Below, one piece after another: positions 2 through 28,953 of a stretch of 32,988 nucleotides of DNA. A program made the translations under genes and the position numbers. A model generated the notes under the pieces. It ran no database searches, was not told the DNA's origin, and saw only the letters and a list, made by a program, of their open reading frames with translations. Each line of letters opens with the position of its first letter. Positions within the stretch are counted from its first letter, which is position 1. The DNA comes from Armatimonadota bacterium (lineage in GTDB: Bacteria > Armatimonadota > Zipacnadia > Zipacnadales > UBA11051), in NCBI GenBank assembly GCA_013178155.1, contig JABLXH010000052.1:1-32988 (forward strand), given 5' to 3'.

Positions 2-3000
2 AAGGTGCCCGGCCCGTGGCCCGGCCTGGGGTTCTACATGTACCGCGAGTCCCAGCGCTGCTATGTCCATCCGGCGTGGGCCGACAAGCGCCTGGCCGAT
101 GTAGATATGGCCTGGTACCAGCGAGAGTTCACCGTGCCCGCCGGTTGGGGCGGAAGGCGCATCACCCTGTATGCCGAGTACCTCAACTCCCTGGCTGTGG
201 TACACGTGGACGGCGCCAAAGTGGGTGAGATCGCCTTCCCCGGCGGTGAGCTGGACCTGACGCCGGCAGTACAGCCAGGGCGGACGCACGTGCTGTCGCT
301 ATTCGTAGCCGCGCTCCCCCTGAACGAGGAGCTTGTGAGCTACGCCGCCGCCGAGGCCGCGCAGCGAAGCCGCAGCCGCGTCGAGCGGCGGGGCCTCTGC
401 GGTGATGTCTTCCTCTGCAGCACCCCTCCCGGCCCGCGCCTGACGGACCTCAAGATCGAGACTTCGGTGCGCGAGCAACGGATCACCTGCCGCGTGAGGT
501 GCACGGGGCTGGCCGAGGGCCCTTACGTCCTGCGCGCGCAGGTGATGGACGGAGGCGCCGAGGTCCTGGCCTTTGACAGCGAGCAGTTCGGGGCTGTCCA
601 GACGAGCGCGGCACCCGTGACTCTCAGCGCCTCCTGGCCCGACCCGCGCCTGTGGGACCTGCACACCCCGCAGAACCAGTATGACCTCAAGCTCAGCTTG
701 CTCGACGGGCGAGGCGCTGTACTCGATGAACTGCCGCCGACGCGCTTCGGCTTCCGGGAGTTGTGGATCGAGGGCCGTGACTTCATGCTGAACGGCACAC
801 GGCTGTACTGCTTCGCCGTGCCGCTGGACAACGCCCAGATGGCCACGGCCTCGGCCACGTACGAGGGAGCCAGGGAGACTCTGGTGCGGTTGAAGCGCCT
901 GGGCGTGAACCTGGTCTACACCCACAACTACGGCTGCGAACCGGGAGCGCACCTGAGCTTCAGTGAGATCCTGCGGGCGGCCGATGATGTCGGGATGCTG
1001 GTGTCGCTGTCGCAGCCTCACGCCAGCGCCTACCAGTGGGACGCACCGGACGCCGATATTAGCAACGGCTACGCTGATCTGGCGGCGTTCTACGTGCGCG
1101 TGGCTCAGAACCACCCGGCCGTGGTCATGTATGCCCTGAACCACAACATGATGGGCTACGCGCAGGATATGAACCCCGACCTGATGGACGGCCGACATGA
1201 CAACCTGGGGCGGCTGGGTGAGCGCAATGATGGCAATGCGCGGTTGGCAAAGCGCACCGAGGACATCGTTCGCCGGCTGGACGGCACTCGCGTCATCTAC
1301 CACCACTCGTCCGGCAACTGCGGGCAGCTCTACACCAGCAACTGCTACCTGAACTTCGTGCCGATCCAGGAGCGCTCGGACTGGCTCGAGAGTTGGGCGA
1401 CGCAAGGCGTCAAGCCGGTGTTCTTCTGTGAGTACGGAGCCCCCCTTGGGATGAGCTGGACCATGCACCGCGGCTGGTACAAGGGCGAGCGGTCCTTCAC
1501 CAACGGGCGTATTCAGCACGAGTTCTGCTGCGCCGAGTGGGGTGCCCAGTTCCGTGGGGACGCCGCCTTCGACCTGACGGACAAGGAGCGTCAGAACCTG
1601 CGCTTTGAGGCCCGGAAGTGGCGGGAGGGGGGCACCTGGTACCGGTGGGACTACCCCTTCGAGATGCACGAATCCGACTTCGATGCCCCCAACATGCTTG
1701 ACGTGCAGGCCATGTACATCCGGGACAACTGGCCCGCCTTCCGGACATGGGGCCTGTCGGCCTTCAACCTGTGGTCACACCGACAGCTCTGGCACAAGCG
1801 CCCCGGCTTCACGCCCCGCCCGGTGACCTTCGACGTGGACTGGGAGAACCTGCAGCGTCCTGGATTCAGCCCGGATTTCCTGGAGACGCAATATGAGGGC
1901 ATCGAGGTGGCCTACGAGTACGAGGACTGGGAGGCCACGCCAGCGGCCGAAGCCTTCCTGCGTCTCAATCAGCCCCTCCTGGCGTACCTGGCGGGCAAGC
2001 CCGCACGGTTCACCTCCAAGGACCATCTGTTCGTGCCAGGTGAACGGGTTGAGAAGCAGGCCATCGTCATCAACAACAGTCGTGAGAGTGTCACCTGCCG
2101 GTGTCAGTGGTCGCTGGACCTGCCGGAGCCACTGACCGGCGGCGGGGAGGTGACGGTCGAAACAGGCAGTCAGGCCCGTGTCACCATTGGACTGGCGCTG
2201 CCCGACGATACCCCGGCAGGGAAATATGTGCTCTCACTGACTGCGACGTTTAGCACGGGCCAGGTGCAGACCGACCGCCTGGACCTCACCGTCATGCCTG
2301 CCCCGGCCGCGCCGCGACTGAGCGGCCGGGTTGCTCTGTTTGACCCTCTCGGTGACACACGCAACCTGCTGGCCACCCAGGGCCTCCGGTTCGACGAAGT
2401 GGGGGCTGACGCAGACCTCGCGGGCTACGACGTCCTGATCATCGGCCGGGGCGCACTGACGCTCGACGGCGCCGGGCCGGAACTGAGCCGGGTGCGTGAG
2501 GGGCTGAAGGTGCTCGTGTTTGAGCAAGAGCGCCAGGTGCTCGAGCAGCGTCTGGGGTTCCGTGTGCAGGAGTACGGCCTGCGACAGGTGTTCCCACGCG
2601 TTCCGGACCACCCGGCCCTGGCCGGCCTTGCGGCCGAGCACCTGCGGGACTGGCGAGGCCAAGCCACGCTGGTGCCACCGCGGCTGGAGTACCAGTTTGA
2701 CCCTCACGATTCGCCATTCATCATGTGGTGTGGTATTCGTGTTACCCGCCCTTGGCGCTGCGGTACCCAGGGCAATGTGGCGTCAGTGGTCATCGAGAAG
2801 CCGGCGCGAGGTGATTTCCTGCCCGTCGTAGATGGCGGGTACGGCCTGGAGTACAGCCCGCTACTGGAGTACCATGAGGGCCAGGGTCTGGTGCTGTTCT
2901 GCCAGATGGACGTGACCGGGCGGACGGAGGAGGAGCCGGCGGCGCAGCAACTGCTGGGCAATATCCTGCGCTATGTGTTGAACTACACTGCGACTCCGGA

Positions 3001-4162
3001 CCGCCGCGTGGTGTATGCGGGGGCCCCGGCTGGACGCGACCATCTGACGCAGGCCGGCTATGCGCCGGAGGAGGCGGTGGTCGGTGATCTGGGTGACGCA
3101 GACGTGCTGGTGGTCACGCCAGGGGGTGCGGAGAGCCTGGCGGCGCAGAAGGCGGCCCTGGGCCAGTGGTTGGCCAACGGTGGGCGGATGCTGGCGGTAG
3201 GTCTGAACGGCGAGGCGCTCAGCGCCTTGCTGCCAGAGCCAATCAGGACACAGGAGGCCGAACACATTGCCTGCACCTTCGCTCCGCCGCCCAGCGCATC
3301 CCCTTTCGCCGGGGTCAGTCCCGCGGAGGTGAACCTGCGCGAGCCCCGGCAACTGCCCCTGGTTACCGCCGGTGCTGCGCCGCTGGGGGACGGAGTACTG
3401 GCGACGACTAACGAAGGTCGCGTGGTCGTGTGTCAGGTGGCGCCGTGGGATTTCGCCTACGCGGAGCAGTTCAACCTGAAGCGCACGTACCGGCGGACGA
3501 GCTGCCTCCTGGCGAGGCTGCTGGGCAATCAGGGCGCCAGGGCCCAGACGCCCCTCCTGGACCGTTTCGCGCGCCCGGTGTCGGCAGACGTGACGGGGCA
3601 GGAGCCGGTGAGTCGCAATGGTGACTTCGCCCTCGACGCCGATGGCGACGGGGTGGCGGACGAATGGAGCGTCTCGGGCGATGGGGCCCGCGTGCAGGCG
3701 CGACGCGAGCCGCTGGCCGGCGAGGAGGGACGCTGGGCGCAGGTCATTACCAGTGCGCCGCAGGACGGGGCCCAGAGGCCCAGCGCGATGCTGGCCCAGA
3801 TGGGGGTGCCGCTGGCAGAAAGGCAGTGGTACCATCTGTCGTTCCGGGCCCGGGCGGAGGGGATGGCCGGGTCAGAGGTGCTGGTCGCCGTCAACCATAC
3901 GCGGAGCTGGACGGCGTTGCTGGAGTACCGACGCTTCTACCCGGGTACCGAGTGGCAGAGGTTCGAGTACTGGCTCCAGGCGACGGGCACGGAGCCGACC
4001 AATACGCGCCTGCAGATCTGGCATGGCAATGCGGGAGAGTTGTGGCTCTCTGACTTGCGTCTGGAGCCCTGCGCGCCGCCGACAGAAGGTCGTTGGCTCA
4101 GCGGGCTGTACCTGGACGCGCCGACGGAGATGGACGACCCCTACCGCTTCTTCCGGTGGTGA
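2..4162 (+). CDS. Large GH2-like glycoside hydrolase, 5' end missing
   Basis: The frame is open at the left edge and the first visible residues already lie inside a GH2 sugar-binding jelly roll, so the start is upstream. Numbering from the GTG at 5: jelly roll about 1-135, Ig-like strand region to 250, then a (beta/alpha)8 barrel from about 255 (FGFRELWIEG entry strand) to 640. A linker sandwich follows, then two Rossmann/GATase-like segments (about 780-1000 and 1010-1090), and a C-terminal carbohydrate-binding-like sandwich from about 1205. The GH2 nucleophile is plausibly E476 in CEYGAP. The usual acid/base segment (WSLGNE type) reads YALNHN at 376-381, putting Asn where Glu is expected. 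The protein is therefore either altered in activity or no longer a canonical retaining glycosidase. GH2 covers beta-galactosidases, glucuronidases and mannosidases; the substrate cannot be told. The PHP-Cache gene follows 30 nt downstream. Confidence 0.8.
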   Translation, partial: KVPGPWPGLGFYMYRESQRCYVHPAWADKRLADVDMAWYQREFTVPAGWGGRRITLYAEYLNSLAVVHVDGAKVGEIAFPGGELDLTPAVQPGRTHVLSLFVAALPLNEELVSYAAAEAAQRSRSRVERRGLCGDVFLCSTPPGPRLTDLKIETSVREQRITCRVRCTGLAEGPYVLRAQVMDGGAEVLAFDSEQFGAVQTSAAPVTLSASWPDPRLWDLHTPQNQYDLKLSLLDGRGAVLDELPPTRFGFRELWIEGRDFMLNGTRLYCFAVPLDNAQMATASATYEGARETLVRLKRLGVNLVYTHNYGCEPGAHLSFSEILRAADDVGMLVSLSQPHASAYQWDAPDADISNGYADLAAFYVRVAQNHPAVVMYALNHNMMGYAQDMNPDLMDGRHDNLGRLGERNDGNARLAKRTEDIVRRLDGTRVIYHHSSGNCGQLYTSNCYLNFVPIQERSDWLESWATQGVKPVFFCEYGAPLGMSWTMHRGWYKGERSFTNGRIQHEFCCAEWGAQFRGDAAFDLTDKERQNLRFEARKWREGGTWYRWDYPFEMHESDFDAPNMLDVQAMYIRDNWPAFRTWGLSAFNLWSHRQLWHKRPGFTPRPVTFDVDWENLQRPGFSPDFLETQYEGIEVAYEYEDWEATPAAEAFLRLNQPLLAYLAGKPARFTSKDHLFVPGERVEKQAIVINNSRESVTCRCQWSLDLPEPLTGGGEVTVETGSQARVTIGLALPDDTPAGKYVLSLTATFSTGQVQTDRLDLTVMPAPAAPRLSGRVALFDPLGDTRNLLATQGLRFDEVGADADLAGYDVLIIGRGALTLDGAGPELSRVREGLKVLVFEQERQVLEQRLGFRVQEYGLRQVFPRVPDHPALAGLAAEHLRDWRGQATLVPPRLEYQFDPHDSPFIMWCGIRVTRPWRCGTQGNVASVVIEKPARGDFLPVVDGGYGLEYSPLLEYHEGQGLVLFCQMDVTGRTEEEPAAQQLLGNILRYVLNYTATPDRRVVYAGAPAGRDHLTQAGYAPEEAVVGDLGDADVLVVTPGGAESLAAQKAALGQWLANGGRMLAVGLNGEALSALLPEPIRTQEAEHIACTFAPPPSASPFAGVSPAEVNLREPRQLPLVTAGAAPLGDGVLATTNEGRVVVCQVAPWDFAYAEQFNLKRTYRRTSCLLARLLGNQGARAQTPLLDRFARPVSADVTGQEPVSRNGDFALDADGDGVADEWSVSGDGARVQARREPLAGEEGRWAQVITSAPQDGAQRPSAMLAQMGVPLAERQWYHLSFRARAEGMAGSEVLVAVNHTRSWTALLEYRRFYPGTEWQRFEYWLQATGTEPTNTRLQIWHGNAGELWLSDLRLEPCAPPTEGRWLSGLYLDAPTEMDDPYRFFRW

Positions 4163-4192: not shown

Positions 4193-7100
4193 ATGGTGCA
4201 CGGAGCGATGAGTCAAACCACACGAGTTGACTTTCATTGCCACTCGACCTACAGCGACGGCGCCGTCTCGCCGCGGGAGCTGGCAGAGCAGTTGGCGGCC
4301 GACGGCGTGGCCTTCGCGGCCCTCACCGACCACAACACAGTGGAGGGACTGCCAGCCTTTGAGCAGGCTTTGGCCCGGCACGAAGTCGGCGTCGTGACCG
4401 GGGTGGAGGTTACGGCCTGGCACGAGGCCCAGGAGCTGCATCTCCTCGGCTATGGCTTCGACCCGGATCATGCCAAGCTGCAGGAGGTGCTGCGGGCGCT
4501 GCGACAGCGCGACCTGCTGGCGAACGCTACGGTGCACGATGCCGTGCGCGAGCGGGCGCTTGCCACGGCCACCCCCTCCAGCGCTGCAGCGACGGCCGTG
4601 GCCAACGGGAGCCGCCTGAGCGTAGAGAGCGCGATCAGCCTGATCCACGAGGCCGGCGGGCGAGCTTTCCTGGCGCATCCGCTGGTTACGGAGGCTGAGC
4701 CGGAGCGGCTCCGTGAACTGCTGGTTGTCCTCCAGGGGCTGGGTCTGGACGGGATCGAGGCGGTGTATGAGCCGTACGCCGCGGCCGAGCAGGAGCGCCT
4801 TCAGAGGCTGGCCGACGAGCTGGGGCTGCTGGTCAGCGCGGGGAGTGACGCCCACGACCGCCGGCTGGCCGGGGGGCGGCCCCTGGGCGTGGAGATGCCG
4901 ACAGCCCGCTGGAAGCGGTTTCGGGATGCGGTCTGCGCCAACCCTCAGACGGTTCCTGGAGCGTCGGGCGCTCGGGGCTCTTCCCCACGCGTGCGGCTGA
5001 AGCGGCGACACCTGCTGTACCACGTGTTTCTGCCCACCGCGCTGGCGATGGGTCTTTTCGTGGCGGTCATCTTCGCCATCTTCCTGCCCACCTACGAACG
5101 CTCGCTGCTGGACCGTAAGCGGGAGATGATCCGGGAACTGACCAACAGCGCGTGGAGCATCCTCGCCGGATATGAGCGCGAAGAGCGCAAGGGCCTGCTC
5201 TCGCGGGCTGAGGCGCAGCGCCTGGCGCGAGAACGTGTGGCGCAGTTGCGTTACGGGCGCGAGGGCAAGGACTACTTCTGGCTGCAGGACATGCAGCCGC
5301 GAATGGTGATGCATCCTTACCGCCCGGACCTGGACGGGCAGGACCTGTCGGACTACCGCGACCCCCGGGGCGTCCGCATCTTCGTGGAGTTCGCCGATCT
5401 GGTCCGGCGGCAGCAGGAAGGGTACGTAGACTACGTCTGGCAGTGGAAGGATGACCCGAGCAGACTGGCGCCCAAAGAGTCTTATGTCAAGGGCTTTGCG
5501 CCCTGGGGCTGGATCATCGGCACAGGCATCTACATTGAGGATGTGCAGCGCGAGATAGGGCGCCTGGAACGCAGCCTCGTCTACACCTCGCTGGGCATCA
5601 TCGTGGTGGTGGCCCTGTTGCTTCTGCACGTGGTTACCCAGACACTTCGCCTGGAGCGGGAACGCTCCGGGGCTGAGGAGGGGCTGCGGGAGTGGACGGA
5701 GCGCTATCGGTCACTGGTCGAGGCCACCACCGAGGGCGCACTGCTGGTGGTGGACGGACGCTGCCGGTATGCCAATCCTTACATGCTGACACTCCTCCGG
5801 GCCGATGAGCGCGAGTTGGGTCTTCTGGACCTGGACGACGTACTGCCGCCCGGGCCGGCGAACGCCGAAGTGCGCGAGATGGTGCAGCGGGTCGCGGCTG
5901 GCGACAGCGCCACCCAGACGGCGGAGTGCGCCCTGCGACGACGCGACGGTTCGGAAGTGGAATGTGTCCTGGCGGTGAGTCGTATGGACTTCGCTGGGCG
6001 CGCTGGCGTCATCCTCCTGGCGCGACCCCTGGGCGTAGTCTCGCCCACGAGTGGGGAAGCCCGGCGAATGGGAGAGCCGGTCCTGCCGCAACAGAGCCCT
6101 GCCGCGGCTGCTCTGGCAGTCGGACTGTTCCGGGCCAGGGTATCACCACAGGGGACGGTGGTCGAGTGCAGTCCTGGAGCGGCCAGGCTGCTGCGCGCCA
6201 GCGCAACCGGCGGGCCAGGGGCGCCACTGACGCTGGCCGCGCTCTTCCGCGACGGCGCGGCCTACGAGGATTTCCGGCAGGAGTTGCTGCACGAGGGCCA
6301 CGCCGAACGACATCTGCACGTCTCTGACCGCGAAGGCGAGGCGCGCACCGTTGCCATCCAGGCGGTCCTGGCGCGGGACGGCGACGGGCTGCCGGCGCTC
6401 ATCGAGGGCAGCATTGAGGACGTTACGGCCTCAGACCGGCGCACGATGCGCCGCGACGCACTCCTCCGACGGCTCCAGGCCTCGGTGCTGTTCCTGCACG
6501 AGCCAGTGGGGCCACTGAGCGCCGCTGACGTCGTGGTGCGCCTGGACACTCCGGTGCAGGCGGTGGTCGCGGCGATGGCGGCCGCCCATGCCAGTGCGGC
6601 GCTGGTGACATCGGAGTCGGGGCAAGCGGTAGGCATCTTCACTGACGGGGATCTCCGCCAACGGGTCATCGCCGCGGGGCTGGACCTGCAGACACCGGTG
6701 CACCGCGTCATGAGCGCGCCGCTGGTGACGGTCCCGGAGCACGCCCAGGTCTACGAAGCCCTGCTGGCGATGGAGAACAGGGCCCTGCAGCATCTGGTCG
6801 TGACCGACCACAACGGCCGCGTGACAGGCATCGTCCGGAGCCGCGACCTGGTGCAGTTCCCCAACTACGGGCCGCTGGTACTGACGCGCGAGGTCTCACA
6901 GGCGGCTAGCGCGGCCGACGTCGCGGCCAACTGCCGCCGGGCTCCCGACCTGGCGAAGGCACTGCTGGACAGCGGCGCCCAACCGCAGCGAGTCACCCGC
7001 ATGCTCAGTGCGGTCTGCGATGCGGCGATCGAGCGCCTGGCGGCACTGGCTGAGGCGGAGTTGGGTCCGCCTCCGGTGCCCTACGTCTTCCTGGGCCTGG

Positions 7101-7900
7101 GCAGCCTAGGGCGCGAGGAGCTGGTGTTTTCCAGCGACCAGGACAATGCCCTGGTATATGCGGATGGTGCGTCGGACGCCGCCGCGGCCCAGGGTTACTT
7201 CCGGGAACTGGCCACCATGATCTGCCGAGGGCTGGACGAGGCGGGCTATCCGTACTGTCCCGGAGAGGTGATGGCCCAGAACCCGCGCTGGTGCCAGCCT
7301 CTGACGGTCTGGCGCCAGTACTTTGCCGACTGGGTACAGCGTGCCGAACCTCAGCAGTTGCTGGAGTTCAGCATCTTCTTCGACTTCCGTCCCGTCGCTG
7401 GTGCCAGCGAGTTGGCCCGGGAGCTGCGCACCCACGTGACCGCTCTGCTCTCGCACAGGCCAGCGTTCTTCCTGTACCTGAGTCAGGAGGTGCTGGCGTA
7501 CAAGCCGCCCGTGGGCCTTTTCGGCCGTATCCTGAGAGCCGGTGAGGCGGGCGGGCAGTTCAACATCAAGGACGCGCTGGCGCCACTGGTAGCCTCAACA
7601 AGGCTTTACGCCCTGCGGGGGGGCGTTGACTCTACCAACACGGTGGAGCGGCTGGCCGAGTTGCTGGAAACCGGGGTGTTGAGCCAAAGCAGCCATGACG
7701 AGACGCTGGCAGCCTACGTGACCCTCACGCGCCTGCGACTGGAGCACCAGGCCACCGCCCTCGATACGGGACAACCGCCTGACAACACCATCAGTCGCCG
7801 GCGGCTGACGACGACTGAGGAGACGCTGCTGAACCAGGCGCTTGCCCAGATCGCGGCGGTTCAGGAGCGCATCAGCCATGACTTTGGGGGCGGAGCCTAG
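4193..7900 (+). CDS. PHP-Cache-PAS-PAS-CBS-DUF294 fusion: membrane sensor with phosphoesterase and nucleotidyltransferase ends
   Basis: The protein has 1235 residues. A PHP phosphoesterase spans about 11-250, with HCH at 15-17, TDHN at 45-48, E72, H162 and SDAHD around 218-222 as metal ligands. TM1 is about 276-298. A periplasmic single-Cache (sCache_2) domain at about 310-455 carries YFWLQD, HPYRPDLDG and PWGWIIGTGIY. TM2 is about 462-482. PAS-like domains lie at about 500-610 and 640-745, the second weaker. A CBS pair covers 776-888. A DUF294 nucleotidyltransferase follows at about 905-1050 with GLGS (968-971) and DQD (982-984), and a DUF294 C-terminal domain at about 1060-1225. Topology puts both enzymes in the cytoplasm. 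DUF294 enzymes are related to GlnD and GlnE and usually carry cNMP-binding and CBS domains. Joining one to PHP, Cache and PAS is not an arrangement I know. There is no kinase, GGDEF or MCP output. An alternative start at 4208 (MSQTTRV) is equally plausible; neither has a good Shine-Dalgarno site. Confidence 0.88.
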   Translation: MVHGAMSQTTRVDFHCHSTYSDGAVSPRELAEQLAADGVAFAALTDHNTVEGLPAFEQALARHEVGVVTGVEVTAWHEAQELHLLGYGFDPDHAKLQEVLRALRQRDLLANATVHDAVRERALATATPSSAAATAVANGSRLSVESAISLIHEAGGRAFLAHPLVTEAEPERLRELLVVLQGLGLDGIEAVYEPYAAAEQERLQRLADELGLLVSAGSDAHDRRLAGGRPLGVEMPTARWKRFRDAVCANPQTVPGASGARGSSPRVRLKRRHLLYHVFLPTALAMGLFVAVIFAIFLPTYERSLLDRKREMIRELTNSAWSILAGYEREERKGLLSRAEAQRLARERVAQLRYGREGKDYFWLQDMQPRMVMHPYRPDLDGQDLSDYRDPRGVRIFVEFADLVRRQQEGYVDYVWQWKDDPSRLAPKESYVKGFAPWGWIIGTGIYIEDVQREIGRLERSLVYTSLGIIVVVALLLLHVVTQTLRLERERSGAEEGLREWTERYRSLVEATTEGALLVVDGRCRYANPYMLTLLRADERELGLLDLDDVLPPGPANAEVREMVQRVAAGDSATQTAECALRRRDGSEVECVLAVSRMDFAGRAGVILLARPLGVVSPTSGEARRMGEPVLPQQSPAAAALAVGLFRARVSPQGTVVECSPGAARLLRASATGGPGAPLTLAALFRDGAAYEDFRQELLHEGHAERHLHVSDREGEARTVAIQAVLARDGDGLPALIEGSIEDVTASDRRTMRRDALLRRLQASVLFLHEPVGPLSAADVVVRLDTPVQAVVAAMAAAHASAALVTSESGQAVGIFTDGDLRQRVIAAGLDLQTPVHRVMSAPLVTVPEHAQVYEALLAMENRALQHLVVTDHNGRVTGIVRSRDLVQFPNYGPLVLTREVSQAASAADVAANCRRAPDLAKALLDSGAQPQRVTRMLSAVCDAAIERLAALAEAELGPPPVPYVFLGLGSLGREELVFSSDQDNALVYADGASDAAAAQGYFRELATMICRGLDEAGYPYCPGEVMAQNPRWCQPLTVWRQYFADWVQRAEPQQLLEFSIFFDFRPVAGASELARELRTHVTALLSHRPAFFLYLSQEVLAYKPPVGLFGRILRAGEAGGQFNIKDALAPLVASTRLYALRGGVDSTNTVERLAELLETGVLSQSSHDETLAAYVTLTRLRLEHQATALDTGQPPDNTISRRRLTTTEETLLNQALAQIAAVQERISHDFGGGA

Positions 7901-7903
7901 CGG

Positions 7904-9307
7904 CTACTGCCCTCGCACCGCGCCCACGACCCGGTGCACCGCGCCCGCAATGCGCTCCTCCACGTCCCCTGCCCAGCGCCAGGCGGGGCGGCCGTACTCG
8001 TCCAGGTGGGGCCCCCCTTCATAGCCGCCCTCCTCCCAGACGCGACGGGATGGTATGTATGCCACCATGTCGTTGGCATAGCCGCAGACCCAGGTCCCCG
8101 GCCCGAACTCCCGCTTGAAGCGCAAGGAGTAGTCTACCACCGCCTCCCCGCCGATGCCGATGAACAGCAGCTCGTTGCCGAACTGCCACGCTTGTACCGG
8201 ATAGGGATAGGAGGTCGGGAAGACGACGCCGGCGTCGATCTGAGCCAGCATGCGCTTCGCCCAGCGGGCGTGGAGTTCCGAGGGGCCGTTGGCGACTGGC
8301 TGCAGCGTCTCGCGGGTGACCAGCTCATCATACTGCAGGTCCACGAACTCGAAAGCCGTCCTCAGGCCGCCGCTGACCGGCTGCAGGGGGCCTGCCAGGA
8401 CCTGCTCCACAGCGTCGGACAGTATCTGCCCATACTTCACGCAGAGGCCAAGCTCGCGCCGGGGAATAGGGTTCTGGTCGGCGCCGCAGGCGTTGAAGAA
8501 GGCCGCCATCGTTCCCGGGTGGCCAGCCTCAAGGTTCACTTGGGCGAAACCCGGGTAGTCACCGCACCAGGTGTTGAAGGACAGTGTGGTGGGATGGCAG
8601 GCATAGCCGAACAGCACGGCGCGTAGCGAGTCGTCAGCTCCCTTGATGACCAGGACCGGGACGTAATGGTCCACCACGCCGCGCAGGGGTGTGCCCGCCG
8701 CAAGCATGGCCGGCACCTCGGCCTCGGTATTCTCGCGGCGGTTGACAGCGAAGGTGCACTTGCCCTCGCCCATCAGCAACTGGGCGGGCTGCAGGTTGGC
8801 CAGCGCCTCCTCGACGGCGTCCGCGATCTCTGCCGACATCCAGGCGGAGTACTCGTCCACGAGGTGACGCTGCTCGTCGTCCAGTGGGTAGTAGTCCACC
8901 AGGTCGTCCTTCAGAATAGGGCCGCAGTGGTTGTGGGAGAACGTGAGCATAAACTCGGAGCGGTCCAGGCCAGTGCGCCGCTGGACATCGGCAAGAAGAG
9001 CCTCGTAGACCGTCTTGGACATGCCCATGTGGTCGGTGGTAACCAGCACGGCCCGTTTGCCGTCCGGAGCCGCGAAGGCGATCACCTTGGCCCACAGGTC
9101 GTGGATCTTGCCGTCGGGGACGCGTTTCGTCCCGTACCCGGCCAGCCACACGGGGGTCTGCGGGGTGATGACGCGACGGGCGAGGCCGACTTGCCAGTCC
9201 ATTGGCGCACTCCTTGCCGGGGCAGCGGCGGTGAGTATCCCTGGCACGGCCAGCAGGGCCGGCGCAAGGGCGACGACGAGTTGGCGATACAGACGCTGCG
9301 GGGCCAT
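7904..9307 (-). CDS. Secreted neutral/alkaline ceramidase-fold metal hydrolase
   Basis: The protein has 467 residues, with a Sec signal in the first 35 or so (hydrophobic 10-28, then APARSAP). The body matches the N-terminal domain of neutral/alkaline non-lysosomal ceramidases. Likely zinc ligands are H127 in SHNHCGP, H238 in ACHPTT, E388 in GIGGE and a tyrosine near 417 (AYIPS). True ceramidases have a Ser nucleophile in a GDVSP-like motif. The equivalent segment here reads CGADQNP (274-280), with no Ser, so ceramide hydrolysis should not be assumed. The family's C-terminal Ig-like domain is missing. The start at 9307 is preferred because the signal peptide begins there. The frame stays open to 9379, but that stretch overlaps the upstream gene. 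The gene lies 13 nt after the TIM-barrel gene and almost certainly shares its transcript. Its stop is 3 nt from the stop of the convergent PHP-Cache gene. Confidence 0.8.
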   Translation of the reverse strand: MAPQRLYRQLVVALAPALLAVPGILTAAAPARSAPMDWQVGLARRVITPQTPVWLAGYGTKRVPDGKIHDLWAKVIAFAAPDGKRAVLVTTDHMGMSKTVYEALLADVQRRTGLDRSEFMLTFSHNHCGPILKDDLVDYYPLDDEQRHLVDEYSAWMSAEIADAVEEALANLQPAQLLMGEGKCTFAVNRRENTEAEVPAMLAAGTPLRGVVDHYVPVLVIKGADDSLRAVLFGYACHPTTLSFNTWCGDYPGFAQVNLEAGHPGTMAAFFNACGADQNPIPRRELGLCVKYGQILSDAVEQVLAGPLQPVSGGLRTAFEFVDLQYDELVTRETLQPVANGPSELHARWAKRMLAQIDAGVVFPTSYPYPVQAWQFGNELLFIGIGGEAVVDYSLRFKREFGPGTWVCGYANDMVAYIPSRRVWEEGGYEGGPHLDEYGRPAWRWAGDVEERIAGAVHRVVGAVRGQ

Positions 9308-9320
9308 GGTGCGGTCACCG

Positions 9321-10103
9321 TCAAGAGTTGGCGGCGATGAAGTCACGGATCCACGTGGCCTGCTCGAGCTGGCCGTCAATGAGGTTGCCCGAGAGGATGG
9401 AATACCCCGCCAGGCTCCCCTCCCCCACCCCGCGCAGAATGCCCTCCCATTGGATCTTGACGCGATCCATCGGCACCGGTGCCCGCAGGGTGTAGTCGCG
9501 CAGGTAGGCGCCCATGATGATGGGTTTGCCCGGGAAGACGTCCTGGCAGCGGAGAATCCCCTCCGCCTGCCGGTCTACCTCCTCGGATCGCCAGATCCAG
9601 AGGTTGATGACGTCCATGTAAGGCGCAAAGTCGGCCCACTCCGGCCCGGATAGCTCGTGGGTGTAGACTACTACCCAAAGCTTGAGGTTCGGGTTGGCGC
9701 TCTTGACGGCGGCATAGACCTCGCCATACTGCTCGGGGGTCATGCCCTCACGGCGGGCCAGGCCGAGCATGTCATCATGGAAGGCGCCGGTGATGTTGGG
9801 GTACTTGAGGGAGAGCTGGCTGACCAGCGCCGCTTCGCTCTTCACCCGTTCCGGGCGCGCGTCCACGGTGTGGTCAGAGCCGCCGTGCTCGGTGTCCTTG
9901 TAGCCCCACTTGGCGATGTCGCAGGTCACCTCATCGAGCCAGGCCATGTGCTGCATGGCGAACTCGGTGTTGGGATGGAACATGTAGTTGGCACGGGTCA
10001 GCCCGAAGAAGCGGCAGCCGTCGCCTACGCCGAGAATGGAGGGGTCCACGCCAGGATCCAGTCCCTGGCCTTCCCAGCACCAGCCGACATCGCGGAAACT
10101 CAT
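9321..10103 (-). CDS. Uncharacterised TIM-barrel-like protein, possible glycoside hydrolase
   Basis: The protein has 260 residues and no signal peptide or membrane segment. Alternating strand/helix segments with charged or aromatic residues at strand ends suggest a (beta/alpha)8 barrel: GAFHDDM (107-112), LWVVVYTHEL (142-151), DVINLWIW (164-171), PIIMGAYL (194-201) and AGYSILSG (232-239). D110-D111 or E150 would be natural catalytic candidates. I cannot assign a GH family. The start at 10103 is supported by AAGGAG 8 nt upstream on the minus strand; longer readings run antisense through the divergent gene. The gene is first in a two-gene operon with the ceramidase-fold hydrolase and divergent from the large polysaccharide operon. 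It is likely cytoplasmic, unlike its secreted neighbours, unless it is exported without a classical signal. Confidence 0.65.
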   Translation of the reverse strand: MSFRDVGWCWEGQGLDPGVDPSILGVGDGCRFFGLTRANYMFHPNTEFAMQHMAWLDEVTCDIAKWGYKDTEHGGSDHTVDARPERVKSEAALVSQLSLKYPNITGAFHDDMLGLARREGMTPEQYGEVYAAVKSANPNLKLWVVVYTHELSGPEWADFAPYMDVINLWIWRSEEVDRQAEGILRCQDVFPGKPIIMGAYLRDYTLRAPVPMDRVKIQWEGILRGVGEGSLAGYSILSGNLIDGQLEQATWIRDFIAANS

Positions 10104-10111
10104 GCAGTTGG

Positions 10112-10117
10112 CTCCTT
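10112..10117 (-). promoter_or_regulatory. Shine-Dalgarno AAGGAG fixing the start of the TIM-barrel gene
   Basis: The plus strand reads CTCCTT, giving AAGGAG on the minus strand with 8 nt to the ATG at 10103. This rejects the much longer open frame that continues to 10988. Confidence 0.75.
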
Positions 10118-10277
10118 CGCCGTCATTCCGGCAGACAGTCTGCGGGTGGGTTCGTCGCCAGGGCCGGGGGATCCTTCCGGGGGTGGGCGCGTTGCCACGA
10201 CCCCTGCAGGCGAGACGATGAGAGAGGACTTCGGGGCAGCGAGGGTGAAAGGCGGCGCGCACGGCAACTCCGCCCGT

Positions 10278-10283
10278 GAGGTG
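10278..10283 (+). promoter_or_regulatory. Shine-Dalgarno GAGGTG for the SGNH-heparinase gene
   Basis: GAGGTG sits 6 nt before the ATG at 10290 and immediately precedes a good signal peptide. It decides this start over the open frame that extends upstream to 9657 through the neighbouring gene. Confidence 0.7.
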
Positions 10284-10289
10284 AACCAC

Positions 10290-13200
10290 ATGGCCTACTC
10301 CCGCATCATGCGCGACGTACTCGGCGCGGCGCTCGCGGCCGGTCTGGTTCTCGCTCCAGCGGCCCGATCCCAGGTCATATTCGACATGGAGACCATCCGC
10401 CATCAGCCTATGGTCGTGGGCGACGAGCGCAAACCCATCGGGACCGTCGAGGTCGTTCCGGGGAAGGTGGGCAACGCCTGCCAGTTCCGGTTCATCGAGA
10501 CCGGCAAGCCCGGCTTCTTCTCGGCCAGCGTCAAGGCCGGGCCGGAATGGAACCAGGCGGCGGGGCTCAGCTTCTGGGTCAGAGGCGACGGTTCCGCCAA
10601 CTGGGGCGGCCTGGAACTGATAGATGCCAGCGACTATGCGCTGCGCTATGGCTACTGCTTCCCCCTGGACTCCACGGAGTGGCGAAAGATTGAGGTGCCG
10701 TGGTGTGACCTGGTGCCCGAACTGCCGGCCGGGGAGCCGGTGGGAGTGCCGGACGGTTACGCGCCCGCGAGCTTTGGCAACCTGTGGTTTGGGAAGTGGT
10801 TCTACTGGCGCGACTATCCGGCGCACGAGTACACCATTGACGAGGTGGCCCTGGAGTCCAGCATCCCGGTGGACACGACAGACTACACCCCGGAGCAGGG
10901 GGGGACGCCACGGCTGTTGGCGAAGCTGCAGGCCGGACAGCCCGTGACCATCGTGACCATGGGCGATTCCCTGAGCGACAAGCGTCACTGGGCCAACCGC
11001 GAGGTGCTATGGTCTGAACTGCTGGCGGCGAGGCTGAAGGCCCAGTATGGCAGCGAGGTCACGTTGGTCAACCCGGCCATCGGCGGCACGGGGCTCAATC
11101 CGAATCTGGTGCTGATGCCCCAGTGGCTGCGCGACACGCCGGCCCCTGACCTGGTGACCGTCTGGTTCGGTTTCAACGATTGGGACAGCGGCATGCGTGG
11201 CGAGCAGTACAAGCAGATGCTGGGCTTCGCTGTGGACCGCATCCGCCGCCTGACCAGAGGCCGAAGCGAGATCCTGCTGATGACGACGTGCCCGGCCATC
11301 CCGCGGTGGACCGAGATGGAAGAGCTGGCTGCCGCGGCCCGGACCGTCGCGGTGGAGAAGAGAACCGGCCTGGCGGACGTGGCCGCGGCCTTCCACAAGG
11401 CCGGAGCGGAGGAGGCAGCGCGCATGAACCTGTATTCCAGTGATACCGTTCACCTGGGGCCTGCAGGCCACCAACTGGCGGCCGAGACGGTCCTGGGCGC
11501 CATCGCAGGGCCGCCGCCGGCCGGCACGGGCGAGCGTCCTGTGCCCCGGGAGCATCCTCGGCTGCTGGGTTCGCGAGCCCGGCTGCAGCAACTGGCCCGC
11601 GAACGGGCTGAGGACTATCAGCGGGTGGTGGCAGTGGCCCGCGAGGCACAGGCCGAGCCGTGGGCCAAGGCGATGTCGCTGTCGCTGGTGTGCGCCATCG
11701 AGGAGGAGGCGCGCTTGGGGCGGGATGCCATTGAGATCGCGAAGCGAGTCTACACCGGCCCCATCCGGGTCGGCCACGAGACCTTCGGTCATGACCTGGC
11801 CCTGTGTGCCATGGTCTATGACCTGTGCTACGAGCACTGGACGCCCGAGGAGCGTGCGGCCTGCATTGAGTACATGAATAAGACCGTAGAGGCCAACGTG
11901 CAGTCTGAGACCCACGTGTTCCACAACGGCTGGTGGGGCTACAAGAACTGGGGCATCGGGCTGGCGTGCTATGCCACCTACTACGACAACGACCGGGCCG
12001 AGGCGACCTTGCAGGCACTGGAAGAGGACTACCGCACCCGCGCGGCCCCGGCGTTGGAGCTGGCTGGTGCGGGAGGCGGCTGGGCGGAGGGCTACTACAT
12101 CAACTACTTCCTGTATGAGTGGCTCTTCTTCTGCGAGGTGGCGCGCCTGTGCGAAGGGGTTGACTACTACGCCGCGGCGCCCGGCTTCTACCGCCAGCGC
12201 GCCATCGCCAGCATGTTCGAGGCGTACCCGGGCCTGGGCCAGTACGGGTCGCGACGCCCCGTACCGATGGGCGACGGCGGCGGACGGCTCTTCGGGGGAG
12301 ACCGCGACAAGGCGCTGTTCGCCCGCTGCATTCTGGTGGACCGGTACCGCGACGACCCCGCCCACCAGGCCGTCAACACCTTCAACCTGCAGACCCCGCG
12401 CTCCTCGGTGGGTAACAACGCCTACAAGGACTTCCTGTGGCGAGACCGCACCATCCCGCGGGAGGATCTGGGGGCGTTCAGGCTCTCGCATCTCAGCCCG
12501 GGACCCGGCTATGTCTACGCGCGTAGCTCGTGGGATGAGGATGCCACGTACTTCTTCTTCAAGTGCGGCGACCGCTTCACCGCGCACCAGCACCTGGACA
12601 ACGGGCACTTTGTCATCTACAAGGGCGCCGAACTGGCTGGCGACGGGGGTCAGTACTACTACTTCGGTGACCCGCATGATGTGAACTACCACCTGCGGAC
12701 CATCGCCCACAGCACCCTGCTGATCCGTGACCCGGCTGAGACCTGGCCTGACATCCGGGCCGGTGAGGTGACGGGCAACGACGGGGGGCAACACCACAAC
12801 TGGCCGCATCACAACGGGGCGGTCGTGGACCCGCAGGACTGGCAGGCCGGCAAGCAGCTCTACGACATCGCTGACATCACCGCCTTCGAGGACACTGGTG
12901 ACTATGTCTATGTCGCCGGCGACTGCACGCGCTCGTATTCTCCCAAAAAGCTCCAAGCCTTTACCCGGCAGATCGTTTTCCTCCGCCCCGGCACCTTCAT
13001 CATCTGCGACCGTGTGGTAGCCACCGATCCGGGCTTTCGCAAGACGTGGCTTTTGCAGGCGATGAAGACGCCGGATCGTCAGGGGGAGCACCTGGTCATC
13101 ACCAACGGCGAGGGGCGTCTGTTCGTGCAGACACTGCTCCCACGTGAGCCACAGGTGCGACTGGCGAGCGGTGAGGAGCTGTACAAGTACGGAGGGCAGG

Positions 13201-13472
13201 CCTACCCGCCCGCACGCGACACGGGCCCGGCTCCGGAATGTCGTGTCGAGGTGTCCCCGGCCGAGCCAGCCGCTGAGGACTACTTTGTGCATGTGCTGAC
13301 CGCCACCGACCCCGAGGTGGGCACGGTGCCCAATGCGACGCTGGAGGAGACCGCTGGCTTCCTCCGCGTGCGTGTTGGGGACACAGCCATTGCCTTCACC
13401 AGGGGTCGCACCGGTGGGACCATCCAGCTCGCGGGCCGGGAGCGGGCGCTGACCGAAAGCGTGAACCGATGA
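10290..13472 (+). CDS. Secreted SGNH esterase / heparinase II-III-like lyase fusion
   Basis: The protein has 1060 residues. A Sec signal covers 1-28, followed by a CBM11-like beta-sandwich at about 30-195. An SGNH (GDSL-type) hydrolase spans about 210-405: GDS with nucleophile S227, GGTG oxyanion region, GFND block, and D385-x-x-H388. A heparinase II/III-type part then runs from about 420 to the end: a helical toroid (HNGWWGYKNW near 543-552) followed by the beta-sheet lyase domain with HQHLDNGH (H766, H768) and the typical ELAGDGGQYYY stretch. Such lyases act on uronate-containing chains by beta-elimination. SGNH enzymes commonly remove acetyl esters from the same polymers. A fused esterase and lyase would deacetylate and cleave in one secreted protein, which is inference. 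The stop overlaps the next start by 4 nt (ATGA), implying coupled translation. The exact substrate cannot be read from the sequence. Confidence 0.82.
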   Translation: MAYSRIMRDVLGAALAAGLVLAPAARSQVIFDMETIRHQPMVVGDERKPIGTVEVVPGKVGNACQFRFIETGKPGFFSASVKAGPEWNQAAGLSFWVRGDGSANWGGLELIDASDYALRYGYCFPLDSTEWRKIEVPWCDLVPELPAGEPVGVPDGYAPASFGNLWFGKWFYWRDYPAHEYTIDEVALESSIPVDTTDYTPEQGGTPRLLAKLQAGQPVTIVTMGDSLSDKRHWANREVLWSELLAARLKAQYGSEVTLVNPAIGGTGLNPNLVLMPQWLRDTPAPDLVTVWFGFNDWDSGMRGEQYKQMLGFAVDRIRRLTRGRSEILLMTTCPAIPRWTEMEELAAAARTVAVEKRTGLADVAAAFHKAGAEEAARMNLYSSDTVHLGPAGHQLAAETVLGAIAGPPPAGTGERPVPREHPRLLGSRARLQQLARERAEDYQRVVAVAREAQAEPWAKAMSLSLVCAIEEEARLGRDAIEIAKRVYTGPIRVGHETFGHDLALCAMVYDLCYEHWTPEERAACIEYMNKTVEANVQSETHVFHNGWWGYKNWGIGLACYATYYDNDRAEATLQALEEDYRTRAAPALELAGAGGGWAEGYYINYFLYEWLFFCEVARLCEGVDYYAAAPGFYRQRAIASMFEAYPGLGQYGSRRPVPMGDGGGRLFGGDRDKALFARCILVDRYRDDPAHQAVNTFNLQTPRSSVGNNAYKDFLWRDRTIPREDLGAFRLSHLSPGPGYVYARSSWDEDATYFFFKCGDRFTAHQHLDNGHFVIYKGAELAGDGGQYYYFGDPHDVNYHLRTIAHSTLLIRDPAETWPDIRAGEVTGNDGGQHHNWPHHNGAVVDPQDWQAGKQLYDIADITAFEDTGDYVYVAGDCTRSYSPKKLQAFTRQIVFLRPGTFIICDRVVATDPGFRKTWLLQAMKTPDRQGEHLVITNGEGRLFVQTLLPREPQVRLASGEELYKYGGQAYPPARDTGPAPECRVEVSPAEPAAEDYFVHVLTATDPEVGTVPNATLEETAGFLRVRVGDTAIAFTRGRTGGTIQLAGRERALTESVNR

Positions 13473-16393
13473 GTGACCTGATGCCCTGTCTGCTGATGGT
13501 AGTGCTGCTGGCTGTGGGGGTCGCCTCCGCCGCGCCCCGGACCCTCGACTTGGGCTTTGGGGGTGGGCAGGCCTGGCAGGTGACGGCCGATGCGCCGTGG
13601 TGGGCGCTCGTGGACCTCCGCCATATGCTCAACTGCTTCCACCCTTACAGTATCTCGGAGACCGGCAGGGCCGCCGGGGCGACCACGATGGTGACCATCC
13701 CCGCTGACTGGCGACCGCCCTTCGCCCTCCGCTTCTTCTGCGCTGACGACTACTTCGCCGACGCGGAGAAGCATAAGCCTGGCATGGTCGGCGTCGAGAG
13801 CTTCTTCGGCCACCGGTACAAGCAGGTGCTGGTGGATGACACGGTGGTCTGGGAGGCCGATTTCGCCGATGAGAACACGCACGGCTCGCCGACGACCTTC
13901 ACAGTGGACCTGACACCGCACGTACAACCTGGGGTGCCCTTCCGGCTGACTCTGCGCGTTTGGGACAAGGTGACGACAGCAGAGCGCAATGAGCGCGATG
14001 TGTGGTTCATCGGTGGCACCTGGTATGCGCCTGGCGACGGCAAGACGGAGCAGCCGCCGCGCTTCCACACCGCAGTGTGGTTCGTTGATCCGGTGGTGGG
14101 CGAGTCGGCGGCGGTGCGCGCGGCTCCAGCCGGGAGACGCCCGCATGAAGCCGTCGTGGCCGCTCGCCACGCCGAACGCTGGCCTCTAAGGCCTCTGTCT
14201 GACGACCTGTCGCTTCCGGTGAAGCTGCGCCTGATTGCCCCGGCTGATATCCCGGCCACCGGCTTCCCGCTGACCTGCGGCCTGCCGTTTCCTCCAGGAC
14301 TGCTGCGCGATGCGGGTAAGCTTGGGCTGCGGGGACCGGGGGGCCAGGAGCTTCCGGTACAGACCGAGCCCACCGCTTGGTGGCCGGACCGCAGTCTGCG
14401 CTGGGTAACGGTGCACACCCTCCTGCCCCCGGGTACGATGCGGGCGGGGGAGGTCACGGTCCATGCCGACGGGCGCGGGCACGGTGCAAGCCCCCTGCGG
14501 GTGACCGAGACCAGCGGCTCCGTGCAGGTTGACACCGGCGCCCTCCAACTGGACCTGGGCGGGAGTGAGCGGGTGCTGGTGGATCGCGTGAGGCGACCCG
14601 ACGGAACGACGTGCCTGGAGGGCCTGCGTCCACGAATGACGGTGGCGCTGGAGAGACGACGGGTGCCCGTGGAGGCGCGCTGGCAACGCGTGCAGGTGCT
14701 GGAACGCGGACCGGTCCGGGCGCGGGTGGAGCTTCATGGGACCCTGCGCGCCGGTAATGAGGTCCTGGGCCGTTTCACCTGTCGGCTGCTGGCCTACGCC
14801 GGGCTGCCAACGGTGCAGGTGCAGTTTCGGACGTACAACGACCTTAAGCCCGTGCCTTACGAGGGGACGCTGAATGACGCGCCACTGGACGTGGCCGACC
14901 TGCGGCTGGTGGCCGAGGCGCCGGGCGTCAGCGGCAAGCACACTGTCTCTGCCGATGCCACGACCGTTGCCCCGGGCCGCCGACCGCCGAACTGGGTCAC
15001 CAATGGTGGCGTGCACGTGGCGGTCTGGCGCTTCTGGCAGCAGTACCCCAAGCGGCTGGCACTGGGTCAAGGACGCCTGGAGGTGGGGCTCTTCGCGGCC
15101 GCGGGTGACGACCGGTTCTACCGCCCGCGCTTCGGTGAGGCCAAGCGCCATGACATCTGGCTGACCTTCGCCCGCGACCCCTTCCCCGAGCCCGAGGCAG
15201 CGACTCTGGGAAGGCTGGCTGATGAGCCACCGCGGCTCTTCGACGGCCCCTGGTTCTGCGGCAGCGCGGCCATCAGCCTTATGGACCCGCAATGGCCGGA
15301 GAGCCACCCTCAGCTGTGGGCGCAAATCGAGCGCCAGTATGGAGACTTCCCCAGCGACAAGTTCCCGGGACATTACGGTCTGCGCAACTTCGGTGACGCG
15401 CCGTATAAGGCGGACCCGCCGCAGTGGCTCAACGGCTACTGGGCCATGGTGCAGGGAACGCTCAACTGGGGCCTGGCCTCGGGGCGGCAGGCGTGGGTGG
15501 AGCGCTCCTTTGAGATCGCTCGCCACATCGCCGATGTGGATACCGTGCACCTGCCCCGGGATCACCCCGACTGGGAGCAGTGGGATGGCATGACCTGTGC
15601 GCTGGGAACCGACCACTCGGTGCACGACGGCCTGTCCCGCTGGGCCGCCTTCCAGATTGGCGAGTCGCTCATGTTGCATCACTGGGTGACCGGCGATCCG
15701 GACAGCCGTGCGGCAGCTTTGGCCAACGCCGAATGGATCATCCGCAACACCGCCGGGCTGGGGTCGTCGGAGGCCCGCAGCCAGGCCCGGCCCATGCTGA
15801 CGCTGCTGCGGGCGTGGGAGGCCACCGGTGACACCCGCTACCGCGACGCGGCGCGGCGGTACCTGGACCTCCGTTACCAGATCGAGAAGGTCATTGACTG
15901 GCGGCGTGGTGCGTATATCCAGCCGACCTACGAGAACTGGCGCTGCGTGTCGGCGGGGCTGGACTCGATGTACGCCATGAACATCTACGAGTACTACCGG
16001 CTCACCGGTGATGTGGATGCGGCACAGCTCGTGGTGGCGGTCGCAGACTCAGTCTATGCGGAGTCGATGCTGCCCCAGGAGGAGGGACTGGGGAGCTTCT
16101 TGTTCTACGTGCGCTACAGCCGCGGCTCATGGTACTACACCCAGATGGCTATCCTGTTTCACATGGCCTACGACCTGACCGGCGACCTGCGCTTCCTGCG
16201 GGCGGGCCGAGCGGCGTTCGCAAGGTATCTGCTCAGCCAGAACCCTGATGGTTCGCCCCTGTACCAGCCCGTGCACAACTTCGGCTGGCTGGACCCGGAG
16301 TACGCGGGCTGGGCGCGCCACTTCCGCGACGTCAAGACGGAACCGTTCGACATTACCAGCCAAACCCCGGTGCCAGACCCGGCGAACTACTGA
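13469..16393 (+). CDS. Secreted PcRGLX/YetA-like (PL26-type) rhamnogalacturonan exolyase
   Basis: The protein has 974 residues with a signal peptide at about 1-22. An N-terminal beta-domain (about 25-225) is not part of the core family. The core follows in the PcRGLX/YetA order: RIFT-barrel region from about 246 (LIAPADIP...GLPFPPG), central beta-sandwich about 345-550, then an alpha/alpha toroid to the C-terminus with GHYGLRNFGDAPYK and a GTDHSVHDGLS segment. The founding enzymes are exo-acting rhamnogalacturonan lyases of PL26 that release unsaturated galacturonosyl-rhamnose. Assignment rests on domain order and motifs. Some YetA-like proteins have no known activity, so the substrate is provisional. 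The start overlaps the previous stop by 4 nt, and GH95 follows after 15 nt. Confidence 0.72.
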   Translation: MSDLMPCLLMVVLLAVGVASAAPRTLDLGFGGGQAWQVTADAPWWALVDLRHMLNCFHPYSISETGRAAGATTMVTIPADWRPPFALRFFCADDYFADAEKHKPGMVGVESFFGHRYKQVLVDDTVVWEADFADENTHGSPTTFTVDLTPHVQPGVPFRLTLRVWDKVTTAERNERDVWFIGGTWYAPGDGKTEQPPRFHTAVWFVDPVVGESAAVRAAPAGRRPHEAVVAARHAERWPLRPLSDDLSLPVKLRLIAPADIPATGFPLTCGLPFPPGLLRDAGKLGLRGPGGQELPVQTEPTAWWPDRSLRWVTVHTLLPPGTMRAGEVTVHADGRGHGASPLRVTETSGSVQVDTGALQLDLGGSERVLVDRVRRPDGTTCLEGLRPRMTVALERRRVPVEARWQRVQVLERGPVRARVELHGTLRAGNEVLGRFTCRLLAYAGLPTVQVQFRTYNDLKPVPYEGTLNDAPLDVADLRLVAEAPGVSGKHTVSADATTVAPGRRPPNWVTNGGVHVAVWRFWQQYPKRLALGQGRLEVGLFAAAGDDRFYRPRFGEAKRHDIWLTFARDPFPEPEAATLGRLADEPPRLFDGPWFCGSAAISLMDPQWPESHPQLWAQIERQYGDFPSDKFPGHYGLRNFGDAPYKADPPQWLNGYWAMVQGTLNWGLASGRQAWVERSFEIARHIADVDTVHLPRDHPDWEQWDGMTCALGTDHSVHDGLSRWAAFQIGESLMLHHWVTGDPDSRAAALANAEWIIRNTAGLGSSEARSQARPMLTLLRAWEATGDTRYRDAARRYLDLRYQIEKVIDWRRGAYIQPTYENWRCVSAGLDSMYAMNIYEYYRLTGDVDAAQLVVAVADSVYAESMLPQEEGLGSFLFYVRYSRGSWYYTQMAILFHMAYDLTGDLRFLRAGRAAFARYLLSQNPDGSPLYQPVHNFGWLDPEYAGWARHFRDVKTEPFDITSQTPVPDPANY

Positions 16394-16408
16394 AGGAGTT
16401 TCCCGCCC

Positions 16409-18724: not shown

Positions 18725-18741
18725 ACGGGAGGATTCAGGCC

Positions 18742-26214: not shown

Positions 26215-26242
26215 CGAGCAGTCACTCCCGGGAGTGAGACAC

Positions 26243-27604: not shown

Positions 27605-27658
27605 CGGGCTCGCGCTGCCATGGGCGCCAAGGGTCCGCGGACAGAAAGGGTAAAGCAG

Positions 27659-28864: not shown

Positions 28865-28874
28865 TGCGGGAGCC

Positions 28875-28899
28875 GTCCGCGGTGCCAGGGGCGGCGGAC
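28875..28899. terminator. Possible hairpin between convergent genes
   Basis: GTCCGC (28875-28880) pairs with GCGGAC (28894-28899) across a 13-nt loop, in the 89-bp gap between two convergent genes. There is no T-run on either strand, so intrinsic termination is uncertain. Confidence 0.25.
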
Positions 28900-28953
28900 C
28901 GCTCATGGCAGACCAGGCTAACCTGTGCTGACCGAGAACGGACCTTCGGCCGG

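Follow-up and report, generated by a model that had tools for sequence, protein, structure and literature searches.

DUF294 proteins are widespread, are encoded beside ActP-type symporters and exonucleases, and occur in acetate and pyruvate regulons. In Pseudomonas putida, the CBS protein PP_0354 and the RNase_T exonuclease PP_0353 are encoded in one operon of the MxtR/ErdR regulon, and mutants of PP_0353 and actP-I grow poorly on pyruvate (PMC9927547). Pflu5625 of Pseudomonas fluorescens, a cyclic nucleotide monophosphate (cNMP)-CBS-nucleotidyltransferase in the CrbS/R regulon, is predicted to act by nucleotidylation (PMC5715377). In the literature searched, which covers few subscription papers, we found no reported substrate or signal of DUF294 proteins and nothing on DUF294 together with a sodium solute symporter. 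Here we analyse one gene from an Armatimonadota bacterium (contig JABLXH010000052.1; the whole stretch of 32,988 nucleotides is called the window below), the product of which joins a PHP phosphoesterase, a transmembrane Cache receptor, PAS and CBS domains and a DUF294 nucleotidyltransferase in a single chain. The initial annotation knew of no described protein built in this way. Indeed, no description of a PHP-Cache-DUF294 architecture came up in the same literature, yet the protein belongs to a conserved family of several phyla and is not a one-off.

With the classic DUF294 module (PP_0354/PP_0353, their P. aeruginosa homologues and Pflu5625), the family shares the output, namely CBS, DUF294 and DUF294_C. 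Most relatives, like the classic module with its DUF485 or DUF4212 gene and SSS symporter gene, also have DUF485 and ActP-like symporter genes as neighbours, and both have a partner phosphoesterase or exonuclease. However, a transmembrane Cache domain with PAS replaces the cytoplasmic, N-terminal cNMP-binding domain of the classic module, and an N-terminally fused PHP domain stands in place of the separate DnaQ exonuclease of other DUF294 systems. A Pfam search of the window protein gave no match to the cNMP-binding domain (PF00027). Since there is neither a cNMP domain nor an adjacent DnaQ gene, the family is a variant of the classic DUF294-symporter-exonuclease module, and not a member of it.

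The sensor has described relatives too. PscD, Adeh_3718, MctS and CtpM belong to the same sCache_2 family; their outputs are chemotaxis signalling domains or histidine kinases, whereas the window protein carries a nucleotidyltransferase/PHP pair and lacks HisKA/HATPase kinase domains in a Pfam search. Of these, the Cache2 histidine kinase MctS controls mctP, a gene for a monocarboxylate permease (PMC9100948). The outputs named in a census of Cache proteins from 2016 are chemoreceptors, histidine kinases, c-di-GMP enzymes, phosphatases, cyclases, Ser/Thr kinases, transcription factors and ion channels, with neither a nucleotidyltransferase nor a PHP enzyme among them (PMC4822843).

Domain architecture, sensor pocket and active sites

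The open reading frame (ORF) runs uninterrupted from 4193 to 7900 on the forward strand and encodes 1235 amino acids. The initial annotation had read PHP, Cache, two PAS domains, a CBS pair and DUF294 with its C-terminal domain in this one stop-free frame, and the reading holds. Pfam matches above cut-off cover PHP (residues 13-80), sCache_2 (307-455), PAS (503-612), two CBS motifs (to 888), DUF294 (916-1054) and DUF294_C (1091-1231). The second PAS domain falls below the Pfam threshold in the window protein, where the AlphaFold order of strands and helices is PAS-like; in 6-8 of 44 relatives, PAS models match this half. While the proposed span stands as an open frame, its start probably does not: relatives begin near M..TTRVDFHCHS, which makes the ATG at 4208 the likely true start rather than position 4193. 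Two hydropathy peaks mark hydrophobic helices at about residues 278-296 and 463-481, on either side of Cache, just as the domain had been placed before. Given the basic RVRLKRR ahead of the first helix, both PHP and DUF294 are expected in the cytoplasm. Two AlphaFold models, of residues 1-625 (predicted local distance difference test, pLDDT, 87) and 620-1235 (pLDDT 89), both show compact domains.

The sCache_2 match is strong (2e-37, 129 bits against a cut-off of 25). The domain is 42% identical to that of Adeh_3718 (4k08), on which it superimposes with a root-mean-square deviation (rmsd) of 1.0 over 144 residues (Z 23.8), and 38% identical to that of PscD (5g4y). In PscD, propionate is contacted by Y90, W92, H103, F126, Y143, W145 and K156 (PMC5062169). 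All seven contacts are kept in the window protein, as Y361, W363, H374, F397, Y414, W416 and K428, and are invariant in 48/48 sequences. Histidine marks a pyruvate-type pocket, while leucine occupies the same place in L-lactate sensors (PMC12415202); H374 is thus of the pyruvate type, and not of the L-lactate type. The domain also matches the MctS model, at 74.7 bits against an equivalog cut-off of 700 and over residues 299-504 only. The predicted, and well-supported, class of ligands is that of C2/C3 monocarboxylates (acetate, pyruvate, propionate, glycolate).

The nearest solved structures to the PHP domain are 2yb1, 9etk, 3e0f and 7ug9. The model gives a Z score of 26.6 and an rmsd of 2.0 over 201 residues with RNase AM (7ug9) and a Z score of 26.7 with NBPase (2yb1); Foldseek agrees with these matches as well as with the GlnE matches given below. 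Among the metal ligands, H15, H17, D22, H47, E72 and H162 are found in 41/41 sequences, H83 in 40/41, and D219 and H221 in nearly all. That the PHP active site is intact is therefore a well-supported prediction. NBPase (CV1693, 2yb1) and RNase AM/YciV (7ug9, 9etk) have the PHP fold (Z about 26) and the metal ligands in common with the window protein. Unlike it, they stand alone and carry a longer insertion; the insertion here (about residues 109-141) has about half the NBPase length, and the domain is fused to a receptor. The NCBIfam equivalog scores of the PHP domain are far under the cut-offs for both NBPase (123 bits against 400) and RNase RNM (109 against 375). A pol-beta nucleotidyltransferase and a PHP domain also meet in a single chain in bacterial PolX, which in this respect resembles the window protein. 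However, PolX is a sensorless DNA polymerase/exonuclease with no membrane part, its PHP domain is C-terminal, and its nucleotidyltransferase belongs to another family.

At the other end of the chain, the window protein matches DUF294 (PF03445, 156 bits against 21) and DUF294_C (PF10335, 119 against 22.5), both of which are also present in 44/44 relatives. The catalytic motif GS-x-GR-x-E...D-x-D is there, with G970, R974, E976, D982 and D1064 conserved in 48/48 sequences and D984 in 47/48; D1064, just downstream of DUF294, is a candidate for the third acidic residue. Judged from these residues, the active site of DUF294, too, is very probably intact. The model of the two domains resembles the halves of GlnE (1v4a, Z 28.1; 3k7d, Z 26.5) and the AMPylase DrrA (6yx5, Z 26.1). 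This is a resemblance of fold only: the protein has a single nucleotidyltransferase domain, scores 16.6 bits against a cut-off of 24 with Pfam GlnE, and is not a member of that family. Like GlnE and GlnD, it combines a nucleotidyltransferase of the GlnE type with a helical domain (Z 26-28 to GlnE), and a modifier and a remover united in one chain are the logic that we propose for the window protein as well. By contrast, the window protein is a membrane receptor without ACT domains, in which PHP replaces the second nucleotidyltransferase of GlnE or the HD domain of GlnD.

Table 1. Positions of the gene and its domains in the window (TM, transmembrane; AF2, AlphaFold)
Feature	Residues	Window position	Strand	Basis and details
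Whole gene, PHP-TM-sCache_2-TM-PAS-PAS-CBS-DUF294-DUF294_C	1235 aa	4193..7900	+	ORF and co-linear full-length homologues
PHP phosphoesterase domain, cytoplasmic	10-250	4220..4942	+	Pfam PHP; ligands H15 H17 D22 H47 E72 H83 H162 D219 H221
TM helix 1, RVRLKRR just before	about 277-298	5021..5086	+	Hydropathy peak of 2.52 at 278; AF2 model shows a long helix
sCache_2 sensor, extracytoplasmic	300-455	5090..5557	+	Pfam sCache_2; pocket Y361 W363 H374 F397 Y414 W416 K428
TM helix 2, continuing as long signalling helix to about 511	about 460-482	5570..5638	+	Hydropathy peak 2.56 at 463; model helix 448-511
PAS domain 1	503-612	5699..6028	+	Pfam PAS/PAS_4; TIGR00229; by fold 3olo (Z 13.6, rmsd 2.3 over 109)
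PAS-like domain 2	about 643-743	6119..6421	+	AF2 secondary-structure order; relatives' Pfam PAS matches
CBS pair	781-888	6533..6856	+	Pfam CBS x2; 2yzi Z 18.7
DUF294 nucleotidyltransferase	916-1054	6938..7354	+	Pfam 7e-46; GSLGREELVFSSDQD motif at 970-984
DUF294_C, helical substrate-binding domain	1091-1231	7463..7885	+	Pfam 2.5e-34

Family distribution, symporter linkage and the DnaQ exonuclease

Scanning a single genome for each species gave 58 loci, 55 of which encode family members; the remaining L088-L090 (two kinases and one chemoreceptor) share only Cache with the window protein. PHP occurs together with Cache in 47 relatives from about a dozen phyla, in a single open frame in 43 of them and with PHP in a separate frame at four loci (L063, L071, L085 and L087). 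Full-length relatives are co-linear and 40-59% identical. The records with members are titled Armatimonadota/Zipacnadia, Chloroflexi, Sumerlaeaceae, KSB1, Lentisphaerae, Verrucomicrobia, Phycisphaerae, Fermentibacteria, Wallbacteria and others. Their prevalence is low and patchy, with 15 carriers among 291 genomes of the window's phylum and 2 among 346 of a Chloroflexota class. Nearly all members share a core of Cache, PAS and DUF294/DUF294_C, to which PHP is added outside the Myxococcota, the only group without it; a short form at L080 and L082-L084 has neither the second PAS domain nor CBS. One member, at L060 (record titled Candidatus Hydrogenedentes), is cut inside Cache by the contig start, and its PHP is not checkable. 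Another, at L077, comes from a record titled Propionibacteriaceae and groups with Armatimonadota and KSB1 sequences in the tree, which points to either a transfer or a misbinned contig. In plasmids, tblastn found no record spanning 80% of the query; its top-ranked rows are classic DUF294 proteins at about 35% coverage.

A symporter had been named in the initial annotation as a usual neighbour of DUF294 genes, and an ActP/MctC-like Na+/solute symporter gene does adjoin most relatives (38/47 PHP-bearing and 7/7 PHP-less loci). In 35 of the PHP-bearing loci it lies upstream on the same strand, often a few bases away and usually with a DUF485 gene. Locus L078 differs from the others in having two ORFs that separate the PHP-Cache gene from the symporter (L078:4720-6955). 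The window itself has no DUF485-symporter pair; its genome has one on another contig, with a symporter 79% identical to that of L034. Among genomes of the window's phylum, an ActP-like symporter is found in 14/15 carriers versus 68/276 non-carriers, and its long form in 7/15 versus 3/276, although the Fisher test on such counts ignores the relatedness of the genomes. The partner symporter in the window's own genome (L091, 1501-3402; C157:26615-28516) is of this long form, in which roughly 165 residues (about 195-375) are inserted after the sixth hydrophobic helix; a search by sequence found no solved relative. The insert was considered as a target of modification. It is an unlikely one, because it is poorly conserved and, by the count of hydrophobic helices, seemingly extracytoplasmic.

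A DnaQ/RNase_T exonuclease gene is found nearby in 7/7 PHP-less loci (L060 left out) and in 0/47 PHP-bearing ones. In the tree, the PHP-less members form one clade nested among the PHP-bearing ones, with classic DUF294 proteins outside. Such a topology indicates that PHP was probably lost once in this clade, and it weakens the idea that PHP was swapped for DnaQ in many independent events. The alternation supports PHP as the counterpart of DnaQ without being decisive.

Proposed mechanism and alternative readings

Sequence or model supports the architecture and topology, the intact active sites and the carboxylate pocket, the linkage to the symporter, a fold like that of GlnE and the alternation of PHP and DnaQ in one clade; what we infer is the identity of the ligand, catalysis, the target and a product shared by PHP and DUF294. 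The protein would be a one-component transmembrane receptor that binds extracellular C2/C3 monocarboxylates at its periplasmic Cache domain. The first membrane helix would carry the signal to PHP in the cytoplasm; the second, followed by the signalling helix and PAS, would carry it to the DUF294 nucleotidyltransferase, while the CBS pair, where present, might supply an adenylate-type energy input. DUF294 would then put a nucleotide on a target that controls how these acids are taken up or used. The nearest candidate is the ActP-like symporter, usually co-encoded, together with its DUF485 partner, and the next is a downstream enzyme. The metal-dependent PHP domain, of the NBPase/RNase AM type, would perform the opposing or completing hydrolysis, a job that, in other DUF294 systems, presumably falls to a separately encoded DnaQ-type exonuclease. 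We thus see the protein, with middling confidence, as a carboxylate receptor that regulates uptake or use of its ligand by GlnE-like nucleotidyl transfer, with PHP as the opposing or partner hydrolase.

Several observations weigh against this account. The alternation of PHP and DnaQ rests on one clade, where the DnaQ gene adjoins a classic cNMP-CBS-DUF294 gene or its fragments, and DnaQ may belong to the classic protein; this neighbourhood, too, weakens the idea of many independent exchanges of PHP for DnaQ. Directly downstream of the classic DUF294 gene of Skermanella, there is no RNase_T product. The link to the symporter is often broken in the window's own clade (L033, L035, L037, L046, L055, L056 and L073), and no ActP-like symporter was detected in the carrier genome G045. 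PHP relatives of known activity process nucleotides and RNA, not nucleotidylated protein. Finally, mutation of PP_0354 in P. putida gave no phenotype in growth on succinate, acetate or pyruvate (PMC9927547).

Both enzymes might instead act on RNA, with PHP as an RNase AM-like exoribonuclease or an oligonucleotide/pAp phosphatase and DUF294 extending RNA or tRNA ends, so that carboxylates would alter the decay or processing of specific transcripts. The best PHP relatives, NBPase and the exoribonuclease RNase AM, speak for this possibility, as does the fact that DUF294 systems elsewhere have a DnaQ-type exonuclease as the functional alternative, and the authors of the P. putida study point to a nuclease that degrades mRNA as a precedent (PMC9927547). 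We nevertheless find an output at the RNA level unlikely, since DUF294 and DUF294_C fit the protein-modifying GlnE and DrrA best, the PHP insertion is short compared with that of NBPase, and the protein is anchored in the membrane and encoded beside a transporter.

A further reading is a small nucleotide messenger or an oligonucleotide, made by DUF294 and degraded by PHP as in a cyclase/phosphodiesterase pair, with CBS as a feedback sensor. A writer, a hydrolase and a domain of a nucleotide-sensing type in one receptor recall the GGDEF-EAL logic, and NBPase-type PHP enzymes act on small nucleotides. Still, the neighbourhoods of relatives have no recurrent downstream nucleotide receptor, the closest folds are protein modifiers and several relatives lack the CBS pair, all of which makes a messenger improbable. 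Degenerate PHP domains occur in some polymerases, and one or both enzyme domains could likewise be non-catalytic allosteric modules; with metal ligands and catalytic acids almost invariant across many phyla, this is a highly improbable reading. A chimera from misassembly or a chance open frame, including the assembly join that the initial annotation wished to see excluded, is ruled out with near certainty by the same co-linear domain order in dozens of independently assembled genomes and by an even composition along the gene (third-position GC content 0.78-0.88).

Neighbours in the window and meaning of the family

The genes around the receptor gene (5-4162; 7904-9379, minus strand; 9657-19878) encode GH2-like, ceramidase-like, GDSL lipase/heparinase II/III, PcRGLX-like, GH95 and FG-GAP proteins, which suggests a polysaccharide-degradation locus. 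A functional tie of the receptor to its GH2-like, ceramidase-like, GDSL/heparinase and GH95 neighbours was rejected because no shared clusters recur beside relatives. Farther downstream, at 25174-32046, there are genes for a Kelch-repeat protein, a class III aminotransferase and a PQQ-type beta-propeller, with a heparinase II/III-like ORF on the minus strand.

Overall, the PHP-Cache-DUF294 family adds a nucleotidyltransferase/PHP output to the Cache receptors. As sensor, nucleotidyltransferase and hydrolase are fused and the class of ligand is predictable, all three become approachable in one purified protein. We would suggest, tentatively and with some doubt, that the family may represent a new class of receptors, in which a carboxylate outside the cell directly gates both a writer, working by nucleotidyl transfer, and a PHP eraser within one chain, and by which a transporter or a metabolic protein would be nucleotidylated reversibly. 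If this is true, the GlnE-like principle would have been moved to the membrane, where nutrients would be sensed through reversible nucleotidylation.

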